DNA of 24,001 bases from a virus: positions 1 to 24,001 of the IMG/VR virus record IMGVR_UViG_3300017989_000437; one strand, given 5' to 3'. The notes beneath the pieces were generated by a model that was not told where the DNA came from, made no database searches, and saw only the letters and a list, made by a program, of their open reading frames with translations. Positions 5,396-24,001 of this stretch are shown in pieces; position 1 is the first letter of the stretch; the number at the start of each line of letters is the position of its first letter. The position numbers and the translations under genes are program-made.

Positions 5396-5419
5396 GGCCC
5401 TTCGGGGCCTTTTCCTTTA
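5395..5419 (+). terminator. Intrinsic terminator of the left operon
   Basis: A six-base-pair stem (AGGCCC/GGGCCT, 5395-5400 with 5405-5410) has a TTCG loop closed by C-G, the very stable UUCG tetraloop type, and is followed by a T-rich tract. It lies immediately after the last + strand stop codon. Read on the - strand the same hairpin is followed by CAGTCG with no U run, so it should act mainly on + strand transcription. Confidence 0.85.
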
Positions 5420-8400
5420 TTTAGGCAGGGGGTAAATCTCTTCCCAGTTCTTGATGAGGTACTGGAGAGTATCCAGTTGCTTTTCATTAAGTTCCGAGAT
5501 GTCATCATAGCCAAGCTTCTTGAGAGCTTGTTGCAGTTCTGCCTTAGAAGACTGCCGCTGAATTTCTTCTATCTTTGAGAGACGAGGGTCATCCTCCCCC
5601 ATCACACCACGACGAAGAAACTCCTTTGTCTTTTCTTTGGCGTTTGTCAACCTTTGTTCAATGATACTTTCTTTTTGTTCCGTCGTCATGTGAGTGAAGA
5701 AGTCGGGATACTCTTGGAGCATCTGGTTGATCTCGTAGTTAGCCACCTCTTCAAAGATAGCATCCAACCTATTCTTCATCTCAGGAGGTCCTTCAAAACC
5801 CCTGTCGGGAATAGCCTTCCAGTGTGCCCTACCAATAGAGGCAAGGGCTTTCTCAACCATGTTCGGCTCAGGAGAGCTACGAGCGCCCATGAGAATGCGC
5901 CCATAGTCAGGGGGAGAATCACCAGCACCCCTAGTTGGTCGTTCCCTTTGCGGTAGTTCATCTGCCGAGGGTTGACCAAAGAGCTTAGGGAAGTCGCTGA
6001 TTACAGGAATTTGATCAACATAACGGAGAGAGGTGTTCAAGAACTCGGAACCCTGACGGCGATCCGGGTTAATCTGACCCTCTCCCGACATGATCCCTGC
6101 GATTTCATTGATGGGTTCAAGAGGTCGAGTGGCACCGGAGATGATCTTACCACCAAGACCAACCGTGGCATCAAACAAGAGTTGACCGGAAGAACCCACG
6201 TCGCCTTGGAAGATGTCCTCGAAAGCTTGCCAGACAACATCCATACCATCCCCAACCTCACGGAAAGCCTGACCAACAAAGAGTTGAGCAGCTTCAGCCC
6301 CAAGATCGTCCGGAATGGCCTTCTTGATATCTTCAGCAGTCAATTCGCTGATACTTTCAATACCCTTGTTCTTCATGTCAAGTCGAATGTGGCCCAAGAT
6401 TTGGGCAAGCATCAGGCCATGAGACTTCGGCCAGTCATAGGATTCGTCCGACAGGGTGGGAGACTCTTCACCAAAGAGCCCGTCCCTGACTTGGTTCCAA
6501 GTAAGGCCCTGTTCAATTTTCTCCATAGCATTGTCGGAGAGCAGCCAGACCGCACCCCAACCAGCAATACCTTTTGCAAGAAGTTCAGAGAACTCTTCTT
6601 CAGCAGGGTCAACAGCAGCGCCCATCAGCTTGCCAGCGTAACTCTTCTTCACCAGTTGTCTTGCAGCGTTTATGCCCGTAAAGTCACCAGCAACAGCAAT
6701 GGTAGTGTTGAAAAAACGACCGAAAGGAACAGCATAACCAAAAGTGGGACTGTTGGAGATTTGCTCAATCCATTTTGCAGTGCTTCTGGAAAAATTTTTC
6801 GCAGGGCCGCTAGACCAACTTTTTGAAGCCGTCTCCTTGAGTGTGCGATTGGTAGCCCTCTGGATAACAAGACTGAACTTGTTAGTCCCCATCTCCACAA
6901 CAGCCTGATCACCAAACTCTTTCAAAAAATCTGTGTAGCCCATGCCATAAGTTCTGGCGATCTCTCTGTCGATTGCAGCGACAAAAGAGAGTTGCTTGGT
7001 GAGTTCGTCCTGAAGCTTAACCCCAGTCCAAGTCTGTGCTGCGTTGGTAAATGCTTCCGCAGCCCTGACACCAGTGTTACCAGTGTCCATGTGGAACCTT
7101 TCAGCAGCATCCAAGAAGCCAGCATCGCCAGACAGAGAGCGGGACAGAGCCTTGTTTGCATTCTCCATCTGCATGGTAGAAAGAAGAATGGTAGCTTCGT
7201 CCATCTGAGAGGTCGGGTTCAGAAGGTTGGCAAAGCGTCGAGTAGAAGACAGAAGAGTTGCTTTACCCTGCCGGAATTGACGCATACCAGCTTCCTTACC
7301 CCCAAGGAACATGGGGACAGAAGTTGCCATATCCATAGTCCCTTGGACAGCATCGGCAACACCGTTCATGACATACATGGTTCCCCAACCCTTCACGTTG
7401 GCACCAGTCGTACCAAAGTGAGAGGTCAAAAGCCTTTTCCAGACAGACTGCACATAGTGTCCAATCTCTGCTGCATGCTTGTCAGGATCAACGACATCAC
7501 CCATAGCCCCCACACCATTCTTGGCGCGAGCAGCCATCTCTGCGGAGAGAGCAAGACCACCTTTTGAGCCATTGCCACCAAACCTTTTGGCAAGAGCAGC
7601 AATGTCAGCGAGGCCAACACCCAGCAAACTGTTCCTAGCCTTATACACAGAAGCAACTTCACTTACCAAGTCACCCTGCATATTGAAGCCAAGGCTCTTC
7701 CCAGTAGCATCTTCGAAGTCAGTCACAGCCTTGCGAATGGTGCTGTCATCCAACCAAGAGAGAATGTCCCCCATCCAGTTAGACATGTTGTCGTCAGAAA
7801 ACCGGCTCGTATACACAAAACCAGATTTATCCAGAACATCTGCAATACCACCTTCAAAAGTGCCGTCTGCATTTTTTACGCCAAAAATCATGGTGCGATA
7901 AAAATCGTTGTAGCGCTGAAGAAGAGTATCCTCAATGCCCGCCTCATCCATCACATCCTTGGCAGTAAGCTTGGCAGTTTCCCAAGTCTGGAAGGGGTGC
8001 TCCTTAAACCTCTTGAAGGCGTCACTCACAGAATCACCAAGCACCTTGGAATCAACCTTCTCTTTCACAGCAGCTTCAAGGTAAGCTTTGTTCTTACCAT
8101 AAGCCGCTTTCATGATCCCTTCGTAGTTTTGAACAGCTTTCTCAAGACCGGGAATTTTCTTAAGCATTGCTTGAGAAGCCTTACCTCCAGCAATAAGGGA
8201 GGGAAGAACAACAACACCGAGACCGTTCAATGCAGTCTGACCAACGCTGAAGTTCTCCTGAGAACCAACATCCTGTTTTGCAATTTGGTAAAGAACGTCA
8301 GAGCCAACTGCCGCAACAGCATCAGCAGCACCGTAAACCACAGCGTCCTTGGCAAGTTCTTTGAAGCCATTGGCGGCAGCATGTTGTGCAATAGCTTCTG

Positions 8401-9082
8401 CACTTTCCTTGGCAGCTACATGGGCAGCAAAAGGAACTGCTTTCGTGGCAACCTGTTGAGAGGCTTTCACAGCCGCAGCAGCAGCCTTCGCACCACCAGC
8501 GGTGTATGCCCTACCAACACCAAAAGAAACCAGAGTGGAGGGGTCCCACACTGCATTCTTGAGGTAGTCCCAAGTTCCATCAACCTTTTCCCAGAAGCCA
8601 TCTCCCCGAGTGTAGAGGTTACCCATGCTGTCGAAAAGGTCATAACCATCCTTGAGAACATTCTTGGTTCTCTCGTCAGCTTTCTGGACGTAGCCAAACT
8701 CATTCAACGTAGTAACAGTTTGACCAGCAGCAAAAGACCTTTGGTAATTTTGCCACATGTCAAGTGCCTCTTCGTCTGAAAGAGTATCTGCATAGTTAGC
8801 AGTTGCACCACCACCAGCCCAAGTAGCAAGACCAGCCATAAGATTTCGGTCAGAGAAGCGAGTGCGAAGGTTCTCCCTGACTGCCGTCATCAGATACTTG
8901 TCATTGAGAATGTCTTCCTCGTTAAGACCTTTGTCTCCGTAGACCTCTGCGACATAGTCTCTGATCCCACCAACCTCTGGGGTGGCAGCTTTCATGGTAG
9001 AAAAACGGTTTGTGACAGGCTCAACAACCGGCTCTTGAACCGACGGAGGTTGAGCAATCATGTTTGCGAAACGATTTTCCAT
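5417..9082 (-). CDS. Large internal virion / ejection protein (1221 aa)
   Basis: This is the largest gene and the last of the virion operon; its ATG overlaps the preceding TAA by one base. The protein is soluble-looking and helical, with Ala-rich stretches (about residues 190-265, for example KAAAAAVKASQQVATKA) and a Gly/hydrophobic segment near 280-300 (LNGLGVVVLPSLIAGG). The C-terminal 120 residues are strongly charged helices. I see no lysozyme, protease or other catalytic motif. Size, composition and place after the coiled-coil and lysin genes fit the giant internal proteins that podoviruses eject ahead of their DNA (the role of T7 gp16), but sequence similarity to T7 gp16 is not visible. 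Internal/ejection protein is therefore a contextual call; a structural role elsewhere in the virion is possible. Confidence 0.65.
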   Translation of the reverse strand: MENRFANMIAQPPSVQEPVVEPVTNRFSTMKAATPEVGGIRDYVAEVYGDKGLNEEDILNDKYLMTAVRENLRTRFSDRNLMAGLATWAGGGATANYADTLSDEEALDMWQNYQRSFAAGQTVTTLNEFGYVQKADERTKNVLKDGYDLFDSMGNLYTRGDGFWEKVDGTWDYLKNAVWDPSTLVSFGVGRAYTAGGAKAAAAAVKASQQVATKAVPFAAHVAAKESAEAIAQHAAANGFKELAKDAVVYGAADAVAAVGSDVLYQIAKQDVGSQENFSVGQTALNGLGVVVLPSLIAGGKASQAMLKKIPGLEKAVQNYEGIMKAAYGKNKAYLEAAVKEKVDSKVLGDSVSDAFKRFKEHPFQTWETAKLTAKDVMDEAGIEDTLLQRYNDFYRTMIFGVKNADGTFEGGIADVLDKSGFVYTSRFSDDNMSNWMGDILSWLDDSTIRKAVTDFEDATGKSLGFNMQGDLVSEVASVYKARNSLLGVGLADIAALAKRFGGNGSKGGLALSAEMAARAKNGVGAMGDVVDPDKHAAEIGHYVQSVWKRLLTSHFGTTGANVKGWGTMYVMNGVADAVQGTMDMATSVPMFLGGKEAGMRQFRQGKATLLSSTRRFANLLNPTSQMDEATILLSTMQMENANKALSRSLSGDAGFLDAAERFHMDTGNTGVRAAEAFTNAAQTWTGVKLQDELTKQLSFVAAIDREIARTYGMGYTDFLKEFGDQAVVEMGTNKFSLVIQRATNRTLKETASKSWSSGPAKNFSRSTAKWIEQISNSPTFGYAVPFGRFFNTTIAVAGDFTGINAARQLVKKSYAGKLMGAAVDPAEEEFSELLAKGIAGWGAVWLLSDNAMEKIEQGLTWNQVRDGLFGEESPTLSDESYDWPKSHGLMLAQILGHIRLDMKNKGIESISELTAEDIKKAIPDDLGAEAAQLFVGQAFREVGDGMDVVWQAFEDIFQGDVGSSGQLLFDATVGLGGKIISGATRPLEPINEIAGIMSGEGQINPDRRQGSEFLNTSLRYVDQIPVISDFPKLFGQPSADELPQRERPTRGAGDSPPDYGRILMGARSSPEPNMVEKALASIGRAHWKAIPDRGFEGPPEMKNRLDAIFEEVANYEINQMLQEYPDFFTHMTTEQKESIIEQRLTNAKEKTKEFLRRGVMGEDDPRLSKIEEIQRQSSKAELQQALKKLGYDDISELNEKQLDTLQYLIKNWEEIYPLPK

Positions 9083-10188
9083 TATTGGATGTACCTCAGG
9101 TGTGCTCCGGGTCCAAAGATTTCGTCAAACTCTGCTATGATAGCCTGACGTTCTTCGGGAGAAGCCCCCTCCGTTCCAGCCTTAAGCATTTCAATAGCTT
9201 CTTGAGTCGGCATGGCAGGGGGTTGAGCAGTTTGCTCAAGATCGTCCCCGGCATAGGTTTCAGTTTCAGGAATAGCAGAGGTTGCATCGGGGACACTTCC
9301 GGTAGCAGTCTGCGAAGGCTCAAGGCTAATCTCGGTGGGGTTCAGGAGATTGTCGATAGCCCAGCCGTAATAACCCTCTGCATACTGCGGGTTGTGTTCA
9401 AACCATTTGTCGATAAACTCCCTGCCAAAGTTCTCATCCCTTTTCGTTAGCACTTCAATAGCACCGTAGAAGCTGCCATTTTTAAGGCTTTCAAGGGCAT
9501 TATCAATAGCTTGAGAGTCTTCAAGACTTACGTTAAGCCCTGCTTCTCCGCCAGCCCTGACGGCTTCAAGGGCCTCGTTTTGCCGCTGAAGCAAGTAATC
9601 TTGAAGGTCTTCCTTGAGAAGATCGCGCATGCTGGCCTGCTCTTGAATAGAAAGAGGCTTCTGGAACTGGTAGGTGAACGAAGTCTCCCTCTGGACTCCG
9701 CTAGGAGTGAGTGCAGTAAGGAAAGACTGGCCCTCGGGGCTGAAGTCATCAAACGTCATACCCTTTGGCAGATGAGGCGTCCAGTCATAAGGTCCAACTT
9801 CATAAACAGTATGAATGGCGGAATCAAGAAATTGCGTAAGACCTTCGTTGGTCAAACCCTCTACTTCGCTAAGGGTGTCTACAGCTTTCCTAAGGGCTTC
9901 TTGACCACCACCGATCTCAAGCTCCCTGACTTGCTCTTCGGATGCGCCATAACCCATGAGAACCTTGGACAGGTGAGCAGCAGAGAAACGCTCATCGCTG
10001 CTTGAGCCACCACCAGAACCCCCGGAAGAACCAAGACCCCTGCCACTTGCTTTGATAAGATCAGGTGCGAGAGAAAGAAAAGTAGTTTCCCTCTTCATCT
10101 TCATCTCTTCTTCAAACATCCTACGCTTTTCTTGCCGATCCATCTCGGCATGCCACCCTTGGGCAAAACCTCTCCAAAAACCGGGCAT
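9082..10188 (-). CDS. Probable internal virion protein (368 aa)
   Basis: The gene starts at a TGATG overlap with the preceding gene and ends in TAATG with the 1221-aa gene. The N-terminus MPGFWRGFAQGWHAEMDRQEKRRMFEEEMKMK is an amphipathic, charged helix, followed by a Gly/Ser linker (about 50-65, SGRGLGSSGGSGGGSSSD). The rest is acidic and helical, with a Pro/Thr-rich segment near 295-330. No enzymatic motif is seen. Its position between the lysin cassette and the giant internal protein suggests a middle-sized ejection or core protein, comparable in place but not in sequence to T7 gp15. I do not recognise the family by sequence. Confidence 0.6.
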   Translation of the reverse strand: MPGFWRGFAQGWHAEMDRQEKRRMFEEEMKMKRETTFLSLAPDLIKASGRGLGSSGGSGGGSSSDERFSAAHLSKVLMGYGASEEQVRELEIGGGQEALRKAVDTLSEVEGLTNEGLTQFLDSAIHTVYEVGPYDWTPHLPKGMTFDDFSPEGQSFLTALTPSGVQRETSFTYQFQKPLSIQEQASMRDLLKEDLQDYLLQRQNEALEAVRAGGEAGLNVSLEDSQAIDNALESLKNGSFYGAIEVLTKRDENFGREFIDKWFEHNPQYAEGYYGWAIDNLLNPTEISLEPSQTATGSVPDATSAIPETETYAGDDLEQTAQPPAMPTQEAIEMLKAGTEGASPEERQAIIAEFDEIFGPGAHLRYIQ

Positions 10189-10745
10189 CAGAAGTCCTCC
10201 TTAGCCATAAGTCCACGAGGCTTCTGCATAGGAGCTTCCTGTTCCTCGTCAATCTCTTCCAAAAACTCTTCAGTGAAAGAGTCGTCTTGTTCTCCTAAGA
10301 AAAGCTTCCGTTTTTGCTTTCCTCTTTCCTCTTTCATCATCTTCTTGTTGCGCGCTTTGATCTTGAGGCTCTTGACCATTCGCTCTTCTTCGGCATCCCG
10401 TTCCGGGTCCTCAAAGCCTTCGTCATATTCAACACCAAGGTCGTCAGCCATACCTTTGATCGCCTCATGGATGGCAGGAGCAACAAGCAAGCTCACATCA
10501 ATCGTATGAAGCCCTTCCGAGACACCCACACGAAGAAGACCCTCAGTCAAACCCTTGATGCTCATCCCAAGCTCCAGAGCATCCATCATGCGTCGCATGA
10601 CTTTCGGTTCCATGATCTTGTCGATATAGAACATGAGTGCATCTTCCGGGTCCACGAACTCGGGGGGACGTTCCCAAGCAAACTTCTTGGGTTCCCTCGT
10701 AAGGGATTCTCCGGGGATTGGTCCGTCAAAGGGTCTATTTAGCAT
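10188..10745 (-). CDS. Conserved phage virion-region protein (185 aa)
   Basis: The N-terminal part (LNRPFDGPIPGESLTREPKK and then WERPPEFVDPEDALMFYIDKI) and the middle (LHTIDVSLLVAPAIHEAIKG) resemble, from memory, a conserved protein of unknown role in marine phages, often placed among structural genes. The C-terminal third is highly charged (many Glu, Lys and Arg) and probably extended or coiled. A strong AAGGAGA ribosome site lies 5 bases before the ATG and overlaps the stop of the upstream lysin gene. The stop overlaps the next ATG (TGATG). The function is not known; a scaffold, core or chaperone role for ejection proteins would fit the context but is a guess. Confidence 0.7.
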   Translation of the reverse strand: MLNRPFDGPIPGESLTREPKKFAWERPPEFVDPEDALMFYIDKIMEPKVMRRMMDALELGMSIKGLTEGLLRVGVSEGLHTIDVSLLVAPAIHEAIKGMADDLGVEYDEGFEDPERDAEEERMVKSLKIKARNKKMMKEERGKQKRKLFLGEQDDSFTEEFLEEIDEEQEAPMQKPRGLMAKEDF

Positions 10746-10755
10746 TGTTATCTCC

Positions 10756-12192
10756 TTAGCTCATATGGATTCGCATGTAGTCAGTCAAAGTCCTGTGACC
10801 ATCACTGGGGTTATACCTGCCGTTGCTTGCGAGATGTTCTTTAAGGCCGGTCTGACCACCAAGGTGAGCAGCAGCAATCATACCGCCCATAGTAACCCTA
10901 ACACCATTGATCGTCTTTCCAATGTATCGGTCAAGCTTGTTACGTTTGATGAAGTTCTCGATATCCTTGAAATGCCAGTTCTCGGCAGCAATTTGGATAT
11001 CCTTGTTTTCCGGTTTTGCAAACTCTTCAATCGGCATATCTTTGGGGACAGCCCCCGCTGCTTGAGCTTCGGAATACCGACCACGACTGAACTGAACCCT
11101 ACCAAAGTGCCCCTTGCCACCGGAACCTTCGGCATCGTTGGTTGCATCCCAATGTCCACGGCTTTCTTCGTGAACAAGAGAGGCAGGGGCCAGAGAACCT
11201 GTTCCAGTGGAAGTTGGCTCGACAGAAGCTGTCGGACGTTCCATAAGGCCCCTAGTCTGTTCTGCATCTTGCGCAAACTGCTGGGGGATTCTGCCTGCAC
11301 GGGCATTGTTCCAAGCCTCCCATAGCCAGTCAGCAGGGCGACCAGTGCCACCTTTACCCCACACGGCGGGGTTACCATAGCCAAGGTGAACGCTCTTTGT
11401 TCCCATGTATTCAGCGTGAGCACCCCAACCTTGGACACCGTTCTGGTAACCACGGTAGAAGATTTCTTGAAAGATGCGCTTGTTTTCCGGCTTACTCCAG
11501 TCAAGAACCTTGCCAGTTCTCATATCCACGAAGTAGGCGTCGGCAGCATTACCATCGTCGTGACGAGTGCTACCAGTGCGACGATTCCCGTGACCTTTGG
11601 CATCCTGACCACCAGAGTAAACAACCATCTGAATACCCATATCTTGAAGAAAAGACATATCTTCAAGAAGCGCAGAGCTTACGGGTTTATTACGAATGGT
11701 GTTATCACCAAATTGGTATTTCACAAAGTCAAAGTTCTTCACGGTTCCGCCCCCTTCTACATGTTGACTAAAGTCTTGACGCATTCTCTCCTGCCTTTCG
11801 GCTTCGATGTCGTCTGGTGTCTGTTCTCCGTTGTCAGCCCGATTTTGACGGGTGTTGATTTGAGGACCAAACATAGCCATTGTTTCCCCCAAGAAAGTGG
11901 GGTAGTTATCCCCTTCTACATCAACACTCCCGGTGGGCTTATCTGCTTCAATCGTACCTGTATCATCGGTATTCATCATTTTGCTGAAGGCTTCCGAGAA
12001 ACCTCCAAGAAAGCCTCCACCACCCCCGCCGGGGAGTTCCGTGGTGTCTTTCTTTTCCTTTTTAGTCGGTCGCCTAACAATCCCAGCAGACTCCCTCCTT
12101 GACTGGGCGGAAGCCCGGTGACCTTGATAAGTCCCGTTACGGATCATGTCCGCAACTTTACTTGCCTGCATGTAGAAGTCTTGATAGCTCAT
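10756..12192 (-). CDS. Virion-associated peptidoglycan hydrolase: M15-like peptidase plus transglycosylase-like domain
   Basis: This 478-residue protein appears to have two cell-wall-cleaving domains. After a basic N-terminus and a Gly-rich linker (55-63), residues 150-285 look like a D,D-carboxypeptidase/M15 fold: VYSGGQDAKGHGNRRTGSTR, then H211-DDGNAA-D218, and SVHLGYG (H269), giving candidate zinc ligands His211, Asp218 and His269. A Pro/Thr/Ser linker (315-336) leads to residues 338-478. That part resembles lysozyme-like transglycosylase modules of phage virions, with HEESRGHWDA (candidate catalytic Glu342/343), GHFGRVQF and MIAAAHLGG. There is no signal peptide and no adjacent holin, and the gene is embedded in virion genes, so entry of DNA through the cell wall is more likely than final lysis. 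The first domain call is firmer than the second. Confidence 0.75.
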   Translation of the reverse strand: MSYQDFYMQASKVADMIRNGTYQGHRASAQSRRESAGIVRRPTKKEKKDTTELPGGGGGGFLGGFSEAFSKMMNTDDTGTIEADKPTGSVDVEGDNYPTFLGETMAMFGPQINTRQNRADNGEQTPDDIEAERQERMRQDFSQHVEGGGTVKNFDFVKYQFGDNTIRNKPVSSALLEDMSFLQDMGIQMVVYSGGQDAKGHGNRRTGSTRHDDGNAADAYFVDMRTGKVLDWSKPENKRIFQEIFYRGYQNGVQGWGAHAEYMGTKSVHLGYGNPAVWGKGGTGRPADWLWEAWNNARAGRIPQQFAQDAEQTRGLMERPTASVEPTSTGTGSLAPASLVHEESRGHWDATNDAEGSGGKGHFGRVQFSRGRYSEAQAAGAVPKDMPIEEFAKPENKDIQIAAENWHFKDIENFIKRNKLDRYIGKTINGVRVTMGGMIAAAHLGGQTGLKEHLASNGRYNPSDGHRTLTDYMRIHMS

Positions 12193-14042
12193 TAGAAGAT
12201 ACCGCCAAAAATCCCTGCTGCAATGCTTCCGATAACAGAACCCATCCCAGCGTTGTCCTCTGCGTCAAGTTCCATTCTTGCGATCTCTCTGCTCATGTCA
12301 GCGGTGATCAGAGACACCCGACGATCCTGTGCGTTTTCCGCAGAGGTAAAGGCATAGGACATCAGGTCTCGTTCAGTCTGCCACAGGTAGTCAAGACCAG
12401 CAGCAGTGAGACCAGTAGCAAGCTGAGCAGCCTGCATGTTACTTTCATGCTGCGCTTGGAACTCGGTAAGAGCAATTGTCTGACGCCACTGGGCATTAGC
12501 TTGGGCAATAATCAAAGAGTTCTGTGCATTGAATTGCTCTCGCTGGGCCTGAAGCTGAGCATTGAATTGGGCAGCTTGGTTAGACTGAGCGGCGTTAAAC
12601 TGCATCTGCTGGTTGGCTTCACCAACGTTGAACATGTTGATCCGGTTGGTTTCACCGGCATTGAACATGTTGACTTGGTTAGCCTGAGCAGCATTGAATT
12701 GAGCCTGAGCATTCCGTTCCGCCACGTTGAACATTGCAACTTGGTTAGCCTGTCCAGCGTTGAACATGTCAACTTGGTTGCGCTGGGCTGCGTTGAACTG
12801 GCGCATGCTGTTAATTTGGTCAGCGTTGAAGCGAGCAATGCTTTCTTGAAGACCGGCGAAGAACTGGTTCGTCTGGTTCTCAGAGGCAGCATTGAACTGA
12901 GCAGCGGCGTTACGAGCAGCCTGATCCGACAGGAGTGCGTTGGCCCTCAACTGGGTGTTGAAAATAAGGGACTGCTGTTCGTTGGCGAGGTTTTGTAGTT
13001 CGAACTGAGCATGAACACGAGCATCCTCGACAGCAATAGGAAGAGCAGCTTCCATAGCGGCTTGCACAATGGCTTGGCCAGCCATAGAGCTTGCACCAAG
13101 TCCACGCTGCTTCATTGCAGCCATAGCCTCACGCATGGCACCCTGTGCCCACGGAGGAGTCCCCTGCTCAAAGTCCTGCATCAACTCAGAAAGCTGACCT
13201 TGCACCGTGGCACGGGCTGAAGGATCGGCAGTAGCAAAGTTGCTACCATACATGTTGATCAGGTCATCCATAGCCCCGGAGACTTCAGATGCTTGGTAGG
13301 TAGCAGCAGGGATGTAATCTGGGGCTTGAGCCGTGACAGCTTCACCGGCAGAGGTATATCCAGCCGTAGTCGTACCGGCTTGTGCAGCAGGACCAGCAGT
13401 AGTAAGACCAGCTTGCGCAGCCCCACCCACTTGGGCAAGACCAGCAGACGTGACACCAGCTTGGGGTGCAGCACCCGCCTGACCAGTTCCCGCAGCAATC
13501 AGTCCGTTGTTAACCCCATCAGCACTGAAGCTGGGAGCCGTGGCAGAGGTGACAAGGGAGGCAGGGTCCATAATGGCCTGACCGGCAGCCTCACCACCGG
13601 AGGGCATGACACCCACGTTGAAGTTCTGTTGTGCGACAGCCAAGGCTTGCTCGGCATCAGCCAAGCGACTCTGTCTTGTGGTGCTGTTGGGGGCCTCGGC
13701 CAACTGCTGAAGTCGCAGGGCGTAAAGGGCCTGTGCATCATTCAGTTCCGCAGTCAACGCTTCGGGAGAAACAGAAGCTTGAGTGGAAGCACTCATCTCG
13801 CTGAACGGGGTAAAGGTTGTTCCACTTGAGGTAGTGCTTGTAGTAGACGTGGGGGTCGTGACATTCGTTGGGGAAGTCACGTTGGTGGTGTTTAGAGAGT
13901 CTAGCTGACTCTGCAAGCTGGCAAGCGTAGCCTCGTACTGAGGAAGAATAGTGGACCTTTGCCCAGCATTCATCCAGCTAGAGTTATCAATATAACTCTG
14001 GTACTGGTCGATCTGTGCCTGTAGTTCTGCTGCAGTAGGCAT
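12192..14042 (-). CDS. Internal virion / ejection protein with twelve hendecad repeats (616 aa)
   Basis: Residues 1-50 form a helical, Gln-rich start and are followed by a Thr/Ser/Val-rich linker. Residues 180-235 carry degenerate AQAGxTTAG-type repeats. Residues 381-512 are twelve consecutive 11-residue repeats with the core xxFNAxxxNxx, a pattern typical of right-handed hendecad coiled coils. The protein ends in a Gly/Ala/Ile-rich tail (VIGSIAAGIFGGIF) that could insert in a membrane. Long helical bundles with a hydrophobic segment fit ejection-channel proteins such as T7 gp14, which is a comparison of role and not of sequence. The genes on both sides overlap by TAATG. A tail-fibre role is the main alternative, given the upstream fibre genes. 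Confidence 0.7.
   Translation of the reverse strand: MPTAAELQAQIDQYQSYIDNSSWMNAGQRSTILPQYEATLASLQSQLDSLNTTNVTSPTNVTTPTSTTSTTSSGTTFTPFSEMSASTQASVSPEALTAELNDAQALYALRLQQLAEAPNSTTRQSRLADAEQALAVAQQNFNVGVMPSGGEAAGQAIMDPASLVTSATAPSFSADGVNNGLIAAGTGQAGAAPQAGVTSAGLAQVGGAAQAGLTTAGPAAQAGTTTAGYTSAGEAVTAQAPDYIPAATYQASEVSGAMDDLINMYGSNFATADPSARATVQGQLSELMQDFEQGTPPWAQGAMREAMAAMKQRGLGASSMAGQAIVQAAMEAALPIAVEDARVHAQFELQNLANEQQSLIFNTQLRANALLSDQAARNAAAQFNAASENQTNQFFAGLQESIARFNADQINSMRQFNAAQRNQVDMFNAGQANQVAMFNVAERNAQAQFNAAQANQVNMFNAGETNRINMFNVGEANQQMQFNAAQSNQAAQFNAQLQAQREQFNAQNSLIIAQANAQWRQTIALTEFQAQHESNMQAAQLATGLTAAGLDYLWQTERDLMSYAFTSAENAQDRRVSLITADMSREIARMELDAEDNAGMGSVIGSIAAGIFGGIF
12507..12902 (-). repeat. Twelve tandem 33-bp coding repeats (11-residue hendecads)
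   Basis: Residues 381-512 divide without any insertion or deletion into twelve units of exactly 11 residues, such as RQFNAAQRNQV, DMFNAGQANQV and NMFNAGETNRI. Phe at position 3 and Asn at position 4 are kept in nearly all units; the second unit has FF. The flanks (for example LIFNTQLRANA) hold weaker units. The DNA copies have diverged from one another, so the array is under selection at protein level. Confidence 0.9.
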
Positions 14043-14565: not shown

Positions 14566-15510
14566 TTAAACTATTGGTCCGGTTCTCGTACCGGTGCTAA
14601 GCCAAGTGATGTTAGCGTTCCCGTTTACGGCCTGACCAGCAGCACCACCTGCACCACCCGAAGTCTGCCCGGCGGGACCATCTGCTGGTCTGCCCGCAGT
14701 ACCTGCTGCACCATAGGTGCCACCCCCTCGGCCACCGCCACCATCTGCGTAGAAAACGTCCCCACCAGAACCACCACCACCGGCAGCAGAAGAAGTCCCA
14801 GTCCCACCGGCACCCCCGTTTTCATCAGAGTTATTATCCCCACCAGACGCGGTAGCACTGCTACCAGAACCCCCCGAAGCAGAGTAAGAGGCGTTCGTGC
14901 GACCACCGCCACCACCACCGCCACCGGCAGCGTAGTAGTTAAGTGGTTCATCTTGACCCTGCCCGATTGCCGAAGAAGCAGCCCCACCGCCACCTCCGCC
15001 ACCTCCGCCACCCCCATGGATAGCTCCGTTGTTGTCTACAATACACGGAACAGTGACACGAAGGGCACGTCCACCAGCGACACCGGCAGAGCCGTTATTT
15101 GAACTACTCGGAGCGGTAGCACTGCCACCAGAACCACCGGCACCACCACGACCAACAATAGTCCCGTCGTTGATTAGCGTGACACCATTAGGAAAGTCCC
15201 CAGAAACGGTGACAGCAGCAGTAGAATTGCCTTGGGTAGAACCCCTTATCTCACCCGTAATGGTAAAGACAAGTCGAGAGCTTCCATCCCAACCGTTAGC
15301 CAAGGCATAAGTTCTAACATCCAGATTACCAGCCTGAGTACCTCTGCTGACGTATTGAGTATAGAAGTCAGAGAAAGAGATCGCGCCACTTGAGATACCA
15401 ACCAAGGCTCTAATGTCAGAGTCATTCAAGGAAGCAGTGGTGCCAGCAGAACCCCCAGCTTCGGTGTGGAGATCATCCATGTCAATTGCACCACTACTGG
15501 GAATTGGCAT
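14566..15510 (-). CDS. Glycine-rich tail fibre tip / adhesin (314 aa)
   Basis: The N-terminus (MPIPSSGAIDMDDLHTEAGG, then SLNDSDIRALVG and ISFSDFYTQY) is a module found at the start of many phage fibre-tip and tail proteins, probably for attachment. A beta-rich region (about 60-125) follows. The remaining 190 residues are dominated by Gly-rich stretches, including an 11-Gly run, separated by Ser/Ala/Asn/Thr segments. This resembles the polyglycine II-helix adhesins of the Salmonella phage S16 gp38 type, in which variable loops between Gly helices bind the receptor. The gene begins inside the last codons of the upstream fibre gene (17-base overlap, GAGGAG ribosome site), so the two are translated together. 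Receptor binding is inference from composition and position. Confidence 0.75.
   Translation of the reverse strand: MPIPSSGAIDMDDLHTEAGGSAGTTASLNDSDIRALVGISSGAISFSDFYTQYVSRGTQAGNLDVRTYALANGWDGSSRLVFTITGEIRGSTQGNSTAAVTVSGDFPNGVTLINDGTIVGRGGAGGSGGSATAPSSSNNGSAGVAGGRALRVTVPCIVDNNGAIHGGGGGGGGGGGAASSAIGQGQDEPLNYYAAGGGGGGGGRTNASYSASGGSGSSATASGGDNNSDENGGAGGTGTSSAAGGGGSGGDVFYADGGGGRGGGTYGAAGTAGRPADGPAGQTSGGAGGAAGQAVNGNANITWLSTGTRTGPIV
14983..15015 (-). repeat. GGN-rich microsatellite coding for eleven glycines
   Basis: Eleven Gly codons in a row include a nine-base unit (GGT GGC GGA) repeated in tandem, with neighbouring GGN-rich stretches around 14890-14930. Such tracts can gain or lose units by slippage while staying in frame when whole triplets change. 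The G-rich strand could also form short quadruplexes. Confidence 0.75.
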
Positions 15511-20166: not shown

Positions 20167-23100
20167 TCAGTTCCTCTTTGTGGCGTATACCACCCTGTTT
20201 TCGTAATCAATCAATTGGGTGATGCTTGTGTCTTGCGCTTCAACAGTTGCAACTCTGTTCTCTTGCAAGACAAGTTGAACCACGTTTGACTCCGGGGCCT
20301 CAACGTGAATCACGCGGTGCTCGAAATCTACAAGGACTTGTGCTTCTGGATTGAGCGAACCGACATTAAATGCCCCAGAGACTGGTGCAATTCCGGTAAG
20401 ACTAATTATACTCAAATTTATCGAAATGTCAAGTCCAATCGACATTTCGGGGGCAAATCCCTGCAAAATAATCTCTGCAGGGGCTGGTGTAGGCAGGGGT
20501 CCACCAACAGGAGCAAAGCCAGAGAAGGTAACACCACCAACTGGCACCTCTTCTCCTGCCCCAAATCTGCTTTGGGGAGCATAACCAACAACAGTAATTG
20601 CTCCAGCATCAACAGGGACAATGGTGTTGAAGAAGATATCACCAGCACCGTCTACCTCAACGGGGGTAATGGACACATCACCTGTTGCAAACACCGACTT
20701 CTTACCATTACCAGAAGCGGTAACAGCAGGGATCGTGATATCACCAGAGGCTGTTGCAGCCCTCTCAGCAACACTGGAGACTTCAGTGGCAGGGGTGGTA
20801 ATTGCACCAATACCAAAGACTTCTTTTCCTGCACTACCGGAGACAGTGACAGGGGTAATCGCAACGTCACCATCGGCAATGATGGCCGGTTCAGCGACAA
20901 TCTGGAACTCAACCCAAGTGACAATAGCCCTGTTGGCTGCACCCTTGGTGGCTGAACCAGAAGTGGTGACAGGGGAGATTGTTACGTCAGCACTTGTAGT
21001 CTTGATTTCCCTTTCTGCACTACCGGAAGCAGTAACAGGAGAAATCGTAATGACACCAGAGCCAACAACTCCCTTGTTACCAGAACCAGAAACGGTGACA
21101 GGAGAAGTGGTAATCGAGTCAGAGATAACCTGACCCTTGGATGCAGAGCCACTAACCTCTGTGACAGGGGTAACAATACTTGCAGTAGAGGTTACTTCAC
21201 GTTCAGCAGAACCGGAGGCAGTAATAGCTCCGGTGGTGATGTTGCCAGAAGAAGTAACCTCTCCGGCAGTGCTAACAAGAGAGTCAATAGTGACCGCGCC
21301 AAGAGTAATGTTAGCGCTTTCACTAACAACTTCTTTTTCTGCCAAACCGTTAGTTGCAACAGGGGCAATGCTGACAGCACCACTTGCAACTCTGGTGATC
21401 TCACCTGCACCACTAACCGCAGTGGGAGAAACAGAAATAGCACCCGAGGCAGCTTTGCCAAGAGTGCCAAAAACCTCGACGGCTCCGGTGGTAATAGCAC
21501 CAGACCCAGTAATGACTCTTTCCGCAGACCCCGTAACAGTCGGTGGTCCGGTAGTCATGTCCCCAGAAGACGTTAGCTGCCTTTCAGCAACACCAACAAC
21601 TTGGGCCGTAGGCAGGTCAACAGAACCCTCGCCAACGACCTCGTTTTCTGCTTCACCACCAATCTCGACTGGGGTAATGGTAATAGCTCCGGAGCCAGTA
21701 ATGGCACGAGAGCCACTACCAGAGGCAGTTGTAGCTGCTGTAGTAATAGAACCGGTAGCTTCATGCTCAAGGCTAGCCTCTGGCCAGTAGCTAAACTCTA
21801 CCCAAGTTACAATAGCCCTGTTGGGGGCGACTTTATCAGCAGAGCCACTAACTTCGGCAGAAGAAGCGACTATACTTGCGCTGCTGCTAGTGATGCTTCT
21901 TTCTGCTGCACCGGAAACAGTTACCGCAGAGAAGGAAGAAGAACCATCCGTAGCAGTGTGCTCGGTTGTAGTGGCCGTAAGGGTGTCAAGATTGATGCCC
22001 CAAAAGCCAGTCCAACCGGCAATGGTATCAACTGTGCCACCCTCACCGCCAGAGATTTTGCCAGCATCAACGCCAAGGTCATCACCGGTGCTACCGGCAA
22101 CAAAGCTCATTAGGTTGGCAGACCAACCCCAAGTATCAGTTGTACCTTGGTCACCGCGACTGTAATCACCGGCAACGGAGTAAGTTTCACCCGTGCCGTT
22201 GACTGTGAACTCTGCGTAACCAGTGTAGCGGGCACTACTGCTGGAGGCATAACCACCACTAACGTTAGCACCGAGGAGAACATCTGCATCGGTTTCAAGG
22301 TTGATAGCGGTATTGGAAGTTTTGGTGAAGCTAGAGCTATCGTTAAAGTCAACAACGTCAGCAACTTGAATATCAACCCTAGCGCCAGCAGTATCAATAT
22401 CTTGTTGAGTATTACTTACAGACCTAAAAACCTCTGCACTGTCGTTAAGCTCAAGAACAACAAACGAGTGCTGGGCTTCCGTAGAGCCGGTTCCAACGTC
22501 AGAGTCGGCACCAGTCTGCGGCCAAGTCCCGAGAGCTTCCCCAGTAAAGACGACATTAGAAAGAGCCAGATCAGCAGTAGATGTCTCAACAATGGTGGTG
22601 TACATATCACCAGCCATGCTGTTGGAAGAGTCTCTGACATAGCTGTAAGCACGAACGTCATTTTCAAGAGACCCCCCAACGGCAAGACCATGCCAACGCT
22701 GGGTTCTTGAGCCAAAGGAAGTATGCCACCACTGGCTACCAAGCACAAGGTACCTTTTGTTGTCCCCTTTGATGGTGACAACGCCAGAAGAAATCTCAAT
22801 CGCAGCGGTGTTGCTCTGGTCTTCGGTAGTCCAAGATGTAATAGTGTTGGGCGTTGTGCCACCAGCCACAGTAGCGTCAGTGCTGCTATAAATGCCGTGG
22901 TTGGAGTAGTAAAGAGGGATAACTTGGAGTTGAGACCTTACCGTTCCACCGGTGGGAGAATCCGAGTCCCTTCTCCACTGGAATTGAATTGTAGCAGAGG
23001 CAGAGGGGTTGTCGATAAATGCCCAAGTACGGACATAGGCTCTATCTTCTGAAGCATCTCGGTTGTAGCCACTGGAGACCCCAGAAACAAAAGTACCCGT

Positions 23101-23358
23101 TCCCCCGGTTTGTTCAAATCTGGCTACCGGGTTGTGACGGCCACTGCTGGCGTCCTCAAACTCGTATGCACCAATAACAAGATACCCATCTGCCAAGTCA
23201 CTGGACGGAAGGGTTAAAGTGGAGGTAGAGGAGTTGAAAGAGTAAGCAGCGCTATCGTTTCTAGTAGCTGTACCAGAAAACAAACCGTTTGGTGCTGCCC
23301 AAGACGTAGTGGGCAGGAGACTAGTTGTACCGCCCCTCCATTCGCCAAGAACAGCCAT
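20167..23358 (-). CDS. Repeat-rich beta structural protein / appendage (1063 aa)
   Basis: The N-terminal 330 residues look like two consecutive beta-sandwich domains with a shared plan (DGYLVIGAYEFED and KRYLVLGSQWWHTS mark their first strands). A third beta domain runs to about 450. Residues 460-915 are about twenty degenerate repeats of 18-22 residues of the form SGxITITPVTVSGSAEREV, broken twice by ANRAIVTWVEF. Then come four GxAP units (917-1003) and three ENRV-type units (1004-1063). Such repeats suggest an elongated beta-solenoid or extended stalk on the virion. No catalytic motif and no signal peptide are seen. It lies just upstream of the fibre-tail adaptor and shares its repeat type with the gene before it. 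Head decoration, tail appendage or receptor binding are all possible. Confidence 0.65.
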   Translation of the reverse strand: MAVLGEWRGGTTSLLPTTSWAAPNGLFSGTATRNDSAAYSFNSSTSTLTLPSSDLADGYLVIGAYEFEDASSGRHNPVARFEQTGGTGTFVSGVSSGYNRDASEDRAYVRTWAFIDNPSASATIQFQWRRDSDSPTGGTVRSQLQVIPLYYSNHGIYSSTDATVAGGTTPNTITSWTTEDQSNTAAIEISSGVVTIKGDNKRYLVLGSQWWHTSFGSRTQRWHGLAVGGSLENDVRAYSYVRDSSNSMAGDMYTTIVETSTADLALSNVVFTGEALGTWPQTGADSDVGTGSTEAQHSFVVLELNDSAEVFRSVSNTQQDIDTAGARVDIQVADVVDFNDSSSFTKTSNTAINLETDADVLLGANVSGGYASSSSARYTGYAEFTVNGTGETYSVAGDYSRGDQGTTDTWGWSANLMSFVAGSTGDDLGVDAGKISGGEGGTVDTIAGWTGFWGINLDTLTATTTEHTATDGSSSFSAVTVSGAAERSITSSSASIVASSAEVSGSADKVAPNRAIVTWVEFSYWPEASLEHEATGSITTAATTASGSGSRAITGSGAITITPVEIGGEAENEVVGEGSVDLPTAQVVGVAERQLTSSGDMTTGPPTVTGSAERVITGSGAITTGAVEVFGTLGKAASGAISVSPTAVSGAGEITRVASGAVSIAPVATNGLAEKEVVSESANITLGAVTIDSLVSTAGEVTSSGNITTGAITASGSAEREVTSTASIVTPVTEVSGSASKGQVISDSITTSPVTVSGSGNKGVVGSGVITISPVTASGSAEREIKTTSADVTISPVTTSGSATKGAANRAIVTWVEFQIVAEPAIIADGDVAITPVTVSGSAGKEVFGIGAITTPATEVSSVAERAATASGDITIPAVTASGNGKKSVFATGDVSITPVEVDGAGDIFFNTIVPVDAGAITVVGYAPQSRFGAGEEVPVGGVTFSGFAPVGGPLPTPAPAEIILQGFAPEMSIGLDISINLSIISLTGIAPVSGAFNVGSLNPEAQVLVDFEHRVIHVEAPESNVVQLVLQENRVATVEAQDTSITQLIDYENRVVYATKRN
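20170..20345 (-). repeat. Three C-terminal ENRV-type repeats
   Basis: The last 60 residues hold three units of about 18-20 residues, with FEHRVIHVEA, QENRVATVEA and YENRVVYATK as the conserved cores. Short strand repeats of this kind occur in other phage structural proteins. Confidence 0.7.
20172..20177 (-). promoter_or_regulatory. Ribosome binding site deciding the fibre-tail adaptor start
   Basis: AGAGGA on the - strand lies six bases before ATG 20165 and inside the end of the preceding gene. It supports the shorter start. Confidence 0.6.
20350..20610 (-). repeat. Four GxAP-type repeats
   Basis: Four units in residues 917-1003 share a hydrophobic strand ending in G-x-A-P: ITVVGYAP, VTFSGFAP, IILQGFAP and ISLTGIAP. 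Spacings are uneven, from 22 to 30 residues. Confidence 0.7.
20610..21980 (-). repeat. Tandem beta repeats (about twenty units of 18-22 residues)
   Basis: Units such as SGVITISPVTASGSAEREI and DGDVAITPVTVSGSAGKEV repeat through residues 460-917. Two copies of ANRAIVTWVEF lie exactly 888 bases (296 codons) apart, near 20910-20943 and 21798-21831. The repeats have diverged at DNA level. Confidence 0.8.
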
Positions 23359-24001
23359 CAGACCTCATCCGCTTCAAACTCTATGTGTAGATCATCATAG
23401 TCCGTGATGCTTGCTACTTCAGGTGCAGTAAGTGTTTGTTCACTTTCCGCAATGGTAGTGGAGATGTCGTTGTGAGTCCACGTAGCAATAGTCGTAGAAG
23501 CACCTTGGACCAACCTCACGGTGAGATTTACCGTGGAGTCATTCGTTGCCTTCCTGTAACGATACCTGATCCTGTGGGGCATATCGGTTTGGACGTTGGT
23601 AGCAGGGTTGCTAAGCGCAATCTTCGTCACGCTTGCAGAAGGAGAGGCTTCACTCTGGATGTAATCAGAGTCGTTCGCACTTACTTCATCGATAGCTTCA
23701 AACAGGTTGGTCGTCGCACCAGTGTTGGTCGTCCAAGAACCCACAGTGGTGTCTGCATTGGGGCGAAGATAGGCAAGCTGACCAAGACCGGCAGTAGCTT
23801 GGGTTGTAATACCCGCAAAAGAAAAGGCACCGGAAGCCGTGAGTACACGCTCCGCAGTGCCAGAAACAGTGACTGGAGTAAGGGATACGATCCCGCTTTC
23901 TGTGTTAATAGAGCGCTCTGCACTACCGGAGACAGTGACAGCAGCAAAAGAAGAAGAGCCGTCCGTGGCAGTATGCTCAGTAGCAGAGTCTTCCACGAAG
24001 A
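23358..24001 (-). CDS. Repeat-containing structural protein, C-terminal part (5' end outside window)
   Basis: The frame is open to the right edge of the window. A GTG at 23996 is probably an internal Val, because the next codon upstream (Phe) is also in frame and the repeat pattern has already begun. The visible 214 residues start with EHTATDGSSSFAAVTVSGSAERSI, three to four of the same 18-22-residue beta repeats as in the next gene. They end in a beta-sandwich-like domain (YLRPNADTTVGSWTTNTGAT ... DYDDLHIEFEADEV) that I recall as a common terminal domain in phage structural proteins. The stop overlaps the 1063-aa gene's ATG (TGATG). The start, full length and role are unknown. Confidence 0.65.
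   Translation of the reverse strand, partial: FVEDSATEHTATDGSSSFAAVTVSGSAERSINTESGIVSLTPVTVSGTAERVLTASGAFSFAGITTQATAGLGQLAYLRPNADTTVGSWTTNTGATTNLFEAIDEVSANDSDYIQSEASPSASVTKIALSNPATNVQTDMPHRIRYRYRKATNDSTVNLTVRLVQGASTTIATWTHNDISTTIAESEQTLTAPEVASITDYDDLHIEFEADEV

Follow-up and report, generated by a model that had tools for sequence, protein, structure and literature searches.

Variable numbers of 11-residue repeats marked by Phe or Trp are a feature of the tape-measure proteins of siphophages such as TP901-1 (Belcaid et al. 2011, PMC3271669; PMC5099701). A hendecad-bearing tube is also found in the H protein of phiX174, whose lining consists mostly of amide and guanidinium side chains (PMC7354561), and in T7 the proteins gp14, gp15 and gp16 exit the head and build a channel (PMC8954989, PMC11784390). 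Here we describe a hendecad protein of a marine short-tailed phage, encoded in a viral DNA window (the whole stretch of 24,001 nt that was analysed, from IMG/VR record IMGVR_UViG_3300017989_000437). The RCA phages related to the window phage have been reported to be short-tailed (PMC6918029). The protein resembles tape-measure proteins and phiX174 H in kind, and it has been shown to belong to neither family. Since its family is unnamed, we label it HEND. The gene, its parts and its downstream neighbours are as follows.

12192..14042, minus strand: HEND gene, an ORF with an ATG start that encodes the 616-aa hendecad protein; homologues in 305 loci
13047..13250, minus strand: conserved N-terminal anchor, residues ~265-332, PPWAQGAMREAMAAMKQRGLGASSMAGQAIVQAAMEA, the most conserved stretch of alignment A1
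12483..13034, minus strand: full hendecad array, residues ~337-520, 16-17 units, predicted helix without Pro, delimited by the register test, AlphaFold and composition
12507..12902, minus strand: the twelve reported hendecads of F-N type, residues 381-512, from splitting the translation into 11-residue units
12195..12251, minus strand: hydrophobic Gly-rich C-terminal tail, residues 598-616, AGMGSVIGSIAAGIFGGIF, located by hydropathy
10756..12192, minus strand: adjacent 478-aa putative cell-wall lysin, whose residues 330-476 match a PHROG endolysin family (1e-23)
10188..10745, minus strand: p185, a small conserved gene downstream of HEND, present in 72 of 85 loci and in 277 loci of a larger set
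9082..10188, minus strand: p368, a fast-evolving middle gene in a position like that of T7 gp15/P22 gp20, assigned by position and size only
5417..9082, minus strand: a 1221-aa giant protein that closes the operon in the position of T7 gp16, identified from its place and size, with homologues at 119 loci

The initial annotation of the window had described twelve gapless 11-residue units at residues 381-512, and these were recovered exactly, at 12902..12507 and free of indels. Phe occupies unit position 3 in all twelve and is followed by Asn in 11 of them (the exception is unit 2, NQFFAGLQESI), while Asn is found at position 9 in nine units, in agreement with the pattern that had been noticed. 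When the protein was shuffled 20,000 times, the longest phase-11 run of Phe was 4. Autocorrelation of residue identity gave z = 9.1 at lag 11 and z = 1.3 at lag 7 in HEND, and lag-11 values no higher than 3.3 in the other proteins tested. The extent of ~132 residues originally given to the rod proved too short: the units are there, but the register runs wider, over residues ~337-520 or roughly 16-17 units. Identity between units of the twelve-unit array at the DNA level ranged from 9 to 25 of 33 positions. The units are thus old and diverged, which rules out a recent slippage array or micro-expansion. The same array is present in two close relatives (L003 and, in part, L002). As for the flanks, the N-terminal anchor has short helices followed by a Gly-Ser turn, and AlphaFold predicts helices at 280-292, 297-313 and 319 onward. 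The C-terminal tail contains the peak 19-residue hydropathy of the protein (1.64), and it is hydrophobic in many, though not all, relatives.

Comparison of repeat number in related phages, which the initial annotation had proposed as a check, proved the most informative analysis. Rod length was taken as the distance between two conserved anchors that profile HMMs located in 305 homologues, one ending near residue 345 and the other starting near residue 509, after earlier passes of the same test on 74 and then 185 homologues. This distance left a remainder of 10 modulo 11 in 304 of the 305 homologues, so that rods of ~10 to 70 units differ by whole units. We found 20 in-phase lengths between 98 and 758 residues: 98, 109, 120, 131, 142, 153, 164 (the class of the window protein), 186, 197, 208, 230, 263, 296, 318, 406, 428, 516, 538, 648 and 758. 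When representatives with less than 60% anchor identity were considered, 15 out of 15 were in phase across nine lengths, for which the chance expectation is ~(1/11)^8. These lengths are only partly independent of one another, many of them differing by a 110-residue cassette, as in the ladder 98, 208, 318, 428, 538, 648 and 758. This cassette corresponds to a super-repeat of ten hendecads, seen in rods of 758 (L339, L341, L371), 648 (L340, L345, L381) and 538 residues (L378, L379); in L339 the autocorrelation at the 110-residue super-repeat was 0.56 against a mean of 0.10. The sole out-of-phase homologue (L063, 170 residues) falls 38 residues short of the 208 class, unless it was misassembled. 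The flanks accept other indels, the distance from the GQL motif to the following W being 14, 17, 18, 21 or 22 residues and the C-terminal lengths being scattered, and the restriction of register is therefore specific to the rod. Unequal recombination between units accounts for the gains of whole units, and the absence of small out-of-phase indels suggests that selection acts on the helical register. An apparently independent expansion of FN-type hendecads was observed in a phiM6-like relative (L183, rod of 263 residues), where xRFNxxExN units are interspersed with DMTxLNxxExN units.

A non-helical fold had been named beforehand as the outcome that would speak against a rod, and AlphaFold predicts helix almost throughout. 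Modelling of residues 262-616 gave a mean pLDDT of 76.9 and helix across 319-612 with two short breaks, and a full-length run gave a mean pLDDT of 65.4. Over the array, the predicted helices span residues 319-429 and 438-543. The position of the break in the rod should not be trusted, because it falls at 468-473 in one run and at 430-437 in the other; structure prediction is known to bend long coiled coils spuriously (PMC11676326). Composition across the family agrees with a helix: in 245 distinct rods totalling 59,512 residues there is no Pro and no Cys, Gly amounts to 1.3% and Asn plus Gln to 31%. Taken together, periodicity and structure prediction, both computational, support a register-locked hendecad helix.

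The nature of its packing surfaces differs from what had been anticipated. Since 11 residues make three helical turns, Asn and Phe recur every third turn and not in every turn as first stated. The Phe ladder is a trait of the lineage of the window; in the family Phe makes up 24% at position 3, and the constant element is Asn at position 4 (69%). Apolar residues favour two pairs of unit positions, 3 with 11 and 2 with 5, placed on different sides of the three-turn hendecad, and a one-face (first-harmonic) apolar moment was no better than that of random position labels (p ~0.97). A single amphipathic stripe with a core of the a/d/e/h type was thus rejected; the Fourier peaks of apolar residues were not above those of shuffles either. 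What stands of the proposed coiled-coil rod is an 11-residue helical rod, backed by the predicted helix, the Pro-free rods of the homologues and the almost exclusively whole-hendecad indels; a conventional coiled coil with one simple core is not supported. Gln gathers on one face (p ~0.008) and charge prefers positions 1 and 8. Packing of the helix on two sides, such as a barrel or a sheet of helices would give, is compatible with the data, a hypothesis for which the two-sided apolar moment was not significant (p 0.13-0.18). The coiled-coil families of hendecad type (Martinez-Goikoetxea and Lupas 2023, as cited in PMC11676326) are likewise mostly hendecad helical repeats; unlike them, HEND carries its apolar positions on two sides and has no single core stripe.

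HEND is an unnamed family of HMO-2011-type and related podoviruses. Its relatives occur in phages of Roseobacter, SAR116, Pelagibacter, Vibrio, Aeromonas, Rhizobium, Sinorhizobium and Pseudoalteromonas, where they are annotated as hypothetical or not at all, except for one labelled 'huntingtin'. The search for remote homologues that had been suggested found no significant sequence-family match in Pfam, PHROG, NCBIfam or PDB, and no match was obtained in plasmids. The hits of fold searches were generic helices, functionally uncharacterised phage proteins or what look like further members of HEND itself, and the lack of a named match in such searches carries little weight. Neither the family and its length series nor virion proteomics of any member was found in the freely accessible papers searched. 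HMO-2011-type contigs (L299-L305 and L308) were binned in metagenome-assembled genomes assigned to Blastopirellula, Flavobacteriales, Neomarinimicrobiota, Rhodobiaceae, Euryarchaeota and Sphingobacteriales. Two of the contigs, identical in name and length, were assigned to two different genomes, and these bins therefore look contaminated.

The order HEND, a small ORF in some cases, a protein of ~180 aa, a middle protein and a giant recurs in phages of Roseobacter, SAR116, SAR11, Vibrio, Aeromonas, Rhizobium, Sinorhizobium and Pseudoalteromonas. This operon lies downstream of tail nozzle and fibre genes, often beside lytic enzymes; in several isolates, a gene for a lysozyme or an M15 peptidase is close to HEND. 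Many neighbours are unannotated; the recognisable ones are an adaptor of the SU10 type (the adaptor gene of the window matches that of SU10 at 7e-15), a nozzle-like protein and tail fibres. Nozzle homologues are still present in loci with rods of up to 538 residues, so these appear to be podoviruses as well. p185 gave no family match and can be called an orphan, conserved as a partner of the rod protein; p368 had no profile match.

A parallel to this arrangement is the set of T7 gp14/gp15/gp16 and P22 gp7/gp20/gp16 (PMC8954989), which shares with the HEND operon its place after the tail genes, the order small, middle, giant and the short tail. The agreement concerns position and size only, and HEND is an extra gene upstream of the small-middle-giant set. 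None of HEND, p185, p368 and the giant showed profile similarity to T7 gp13-16 or to P22 gp7, gp20 and gp16. The best of 30 neighbour comparisons (the giant against P-SSP7 gp16, P = 0.005) was not significant after correction, and the giant had no significant match to gp16 of T7, P-SSP7 or P22. Homology to P22 gp7 and T7 gp14, which the Gly-Ser motifs and Gly-rich tails had suggested, was discarded after profile comparison gave nothing. With phiX174 H, HEND shares a hendecad helix, a Gln/Asn-rich region and a hydrophobic Gly-rich terminal segment. However, H has three hendecads only, followed by heptads, and its tube comprises 121 residues per chain, whereas HEND arrays range from ~100 to 760 residues; a role in DNA delivery has been demonstrated for H and is proposed for HEND. 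The amide content of 31% is at most compatible with an amide-lined lumen of the H type. Alignment of HEND with the single phiX174 H sequence by hhalign detected no relation (local P = 0.26), and no member of alignment A1 matches phrog_1471, the family of H.

On synteny, we consider that HEND has about an even chance of being an internal virion protein, of pilot or ejection type, in a short-tailed phage; it is the missing profile similarity to the T7 and P22 proteins that keeps the estimate at this level. The DNA-ejection role and envelope-spanning channel of the initial annotation fare accordingly: gene order fits, and no profile match to T7, P22 or phiX174 H backs them. In such a role, the middle of HEND would form one long alpha-helix with a three-turn 11-residue register between the N-terminal anchor and the C-terminal region. 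Several copies might pack side by side through two apolar strips, their Asn/Gln positions making polar ladders, and the assembly would exit the head together with the DNA or ahead of it, forming or lining part of the conduit for delivery. The rod would change in length through unequal recombination between units, with register-preserving changes alone surviving. The full picture, a proline-free alpha-helical barrel providing a conduit lined by Asn/Gln ladders, varying in steps of 11 and 110 residues and unrelated in sequence to known ejection proteins, is tentative and, taken as a whole, unlikely. Whatever its exact role, the rod is probably not a gauge of envelope width: even within the phages of Pelagibacter, HTVC033P has 14 units and HTVC115P has 28, which disfavours an envelope-length ruler.

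The length of the largest members bears on where the protein could reside. A rod of 758 residues would measure ~114 nm if straight (1.5 Å per residue); it is too long to lie straight in a podovirus head of usual size or to cross an envelope, and long members must bend or fold. Rods of this length would suit a fibre outside the particle better than the head interior, and HEND could then be a helical whisker on the tail or head that serves adsorption, its length variation reflecting host interaction. The gene does lie just downstream of fibre genes, and two weak BFVD matches are annotated as intramolecular chaperone. Searches of the long N-termini of some members for fibre, receptor-binding or chaperone domains found none, however, and the idea that they are fused to fibre domains was dropped; moreover, the anchors stay well conserved from host to host, as receptor-binding parts typically do not, and HEND and p185 go together. 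We regard an external fibre as quite improbable. Still fainter is the prospect that HEND serves in scaffolding or core assembly, where its helices would be bundled around the portal and organise the head interior or DNA spool without being ejected. Extended, proline-free helices rich in Ala and Gln are common among scaffolding proteins, but the gene sits in a late operon of tail and internal proteins, not next to capsid and portal genes, and many members have the hydrophobic Gly-rich tail.

A tape-like rod instead of a tube is a doubtful but possible alternative to the barrel. One or a few long helices would be stored in the head or in the portal-tail channel and expelled ahead of the DNA, and the 11-residue periodicity would fit binding partners or rings, with no barrel. 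Siphophage tape-measure proteins share with HEND a variable count of gapless 11-residue units, a fixed aromatic marker and a long helix (PMC3271669, PMC5099701). The window protein fits the published pattern 7 x [FW]-x(10) from residue 383, and TP901-1 mutants indicate that periodicity counts more than side chains. Yet the aromatic pattern was found in only 1 of the 305 relatives, the marker being restricted to the lineage of the window, and HEND further differs in its high Asn/Gln, in the 110-residue super-unit of its longest members and in the absence of a family-model match. The gene context also looks like that of a podovirus, the recognisable neighbours being of the adaptor and nozzle type in a group reported as short-tailed (PMC6918029).

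Returning to the conduit reading, if it is true these short-tailed phages would have a tape measure without a long tail. Long-tailed phages have a tape measure that also varies by whole units, and this analogy hints at a rod or conduit for phage DNA delivery. With a more than 7-fold range of length, almost always in whole hendecads, the HEND rod amounts to a natural experiment on helical register. With it one can test whether HEND forms a tube, whether the Asn/Gln ladder contacts DNA and what rod length measures in a phage without a long tail.

Other genes of these loci gave minor observations. In the window, a Gly-rich 314-aa protein (14566-15510, minus strand) with weak matches to GP38 adhesin and tail-fibre families is a possible receptor-binding protein. 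A 1063-aa fibre-like protein (20167-23358, minus strand) has a repeat of roughly 21 residues (lag-21 z = 6.3) and adjoins a partial ORF (23358-23999, minus strand). Annotations of toxin-activating lysine-acyltransferase occur near the rod gene in CRP-235 (L294, 2575-2997) and HTVC115P (L297, 5405-5854).
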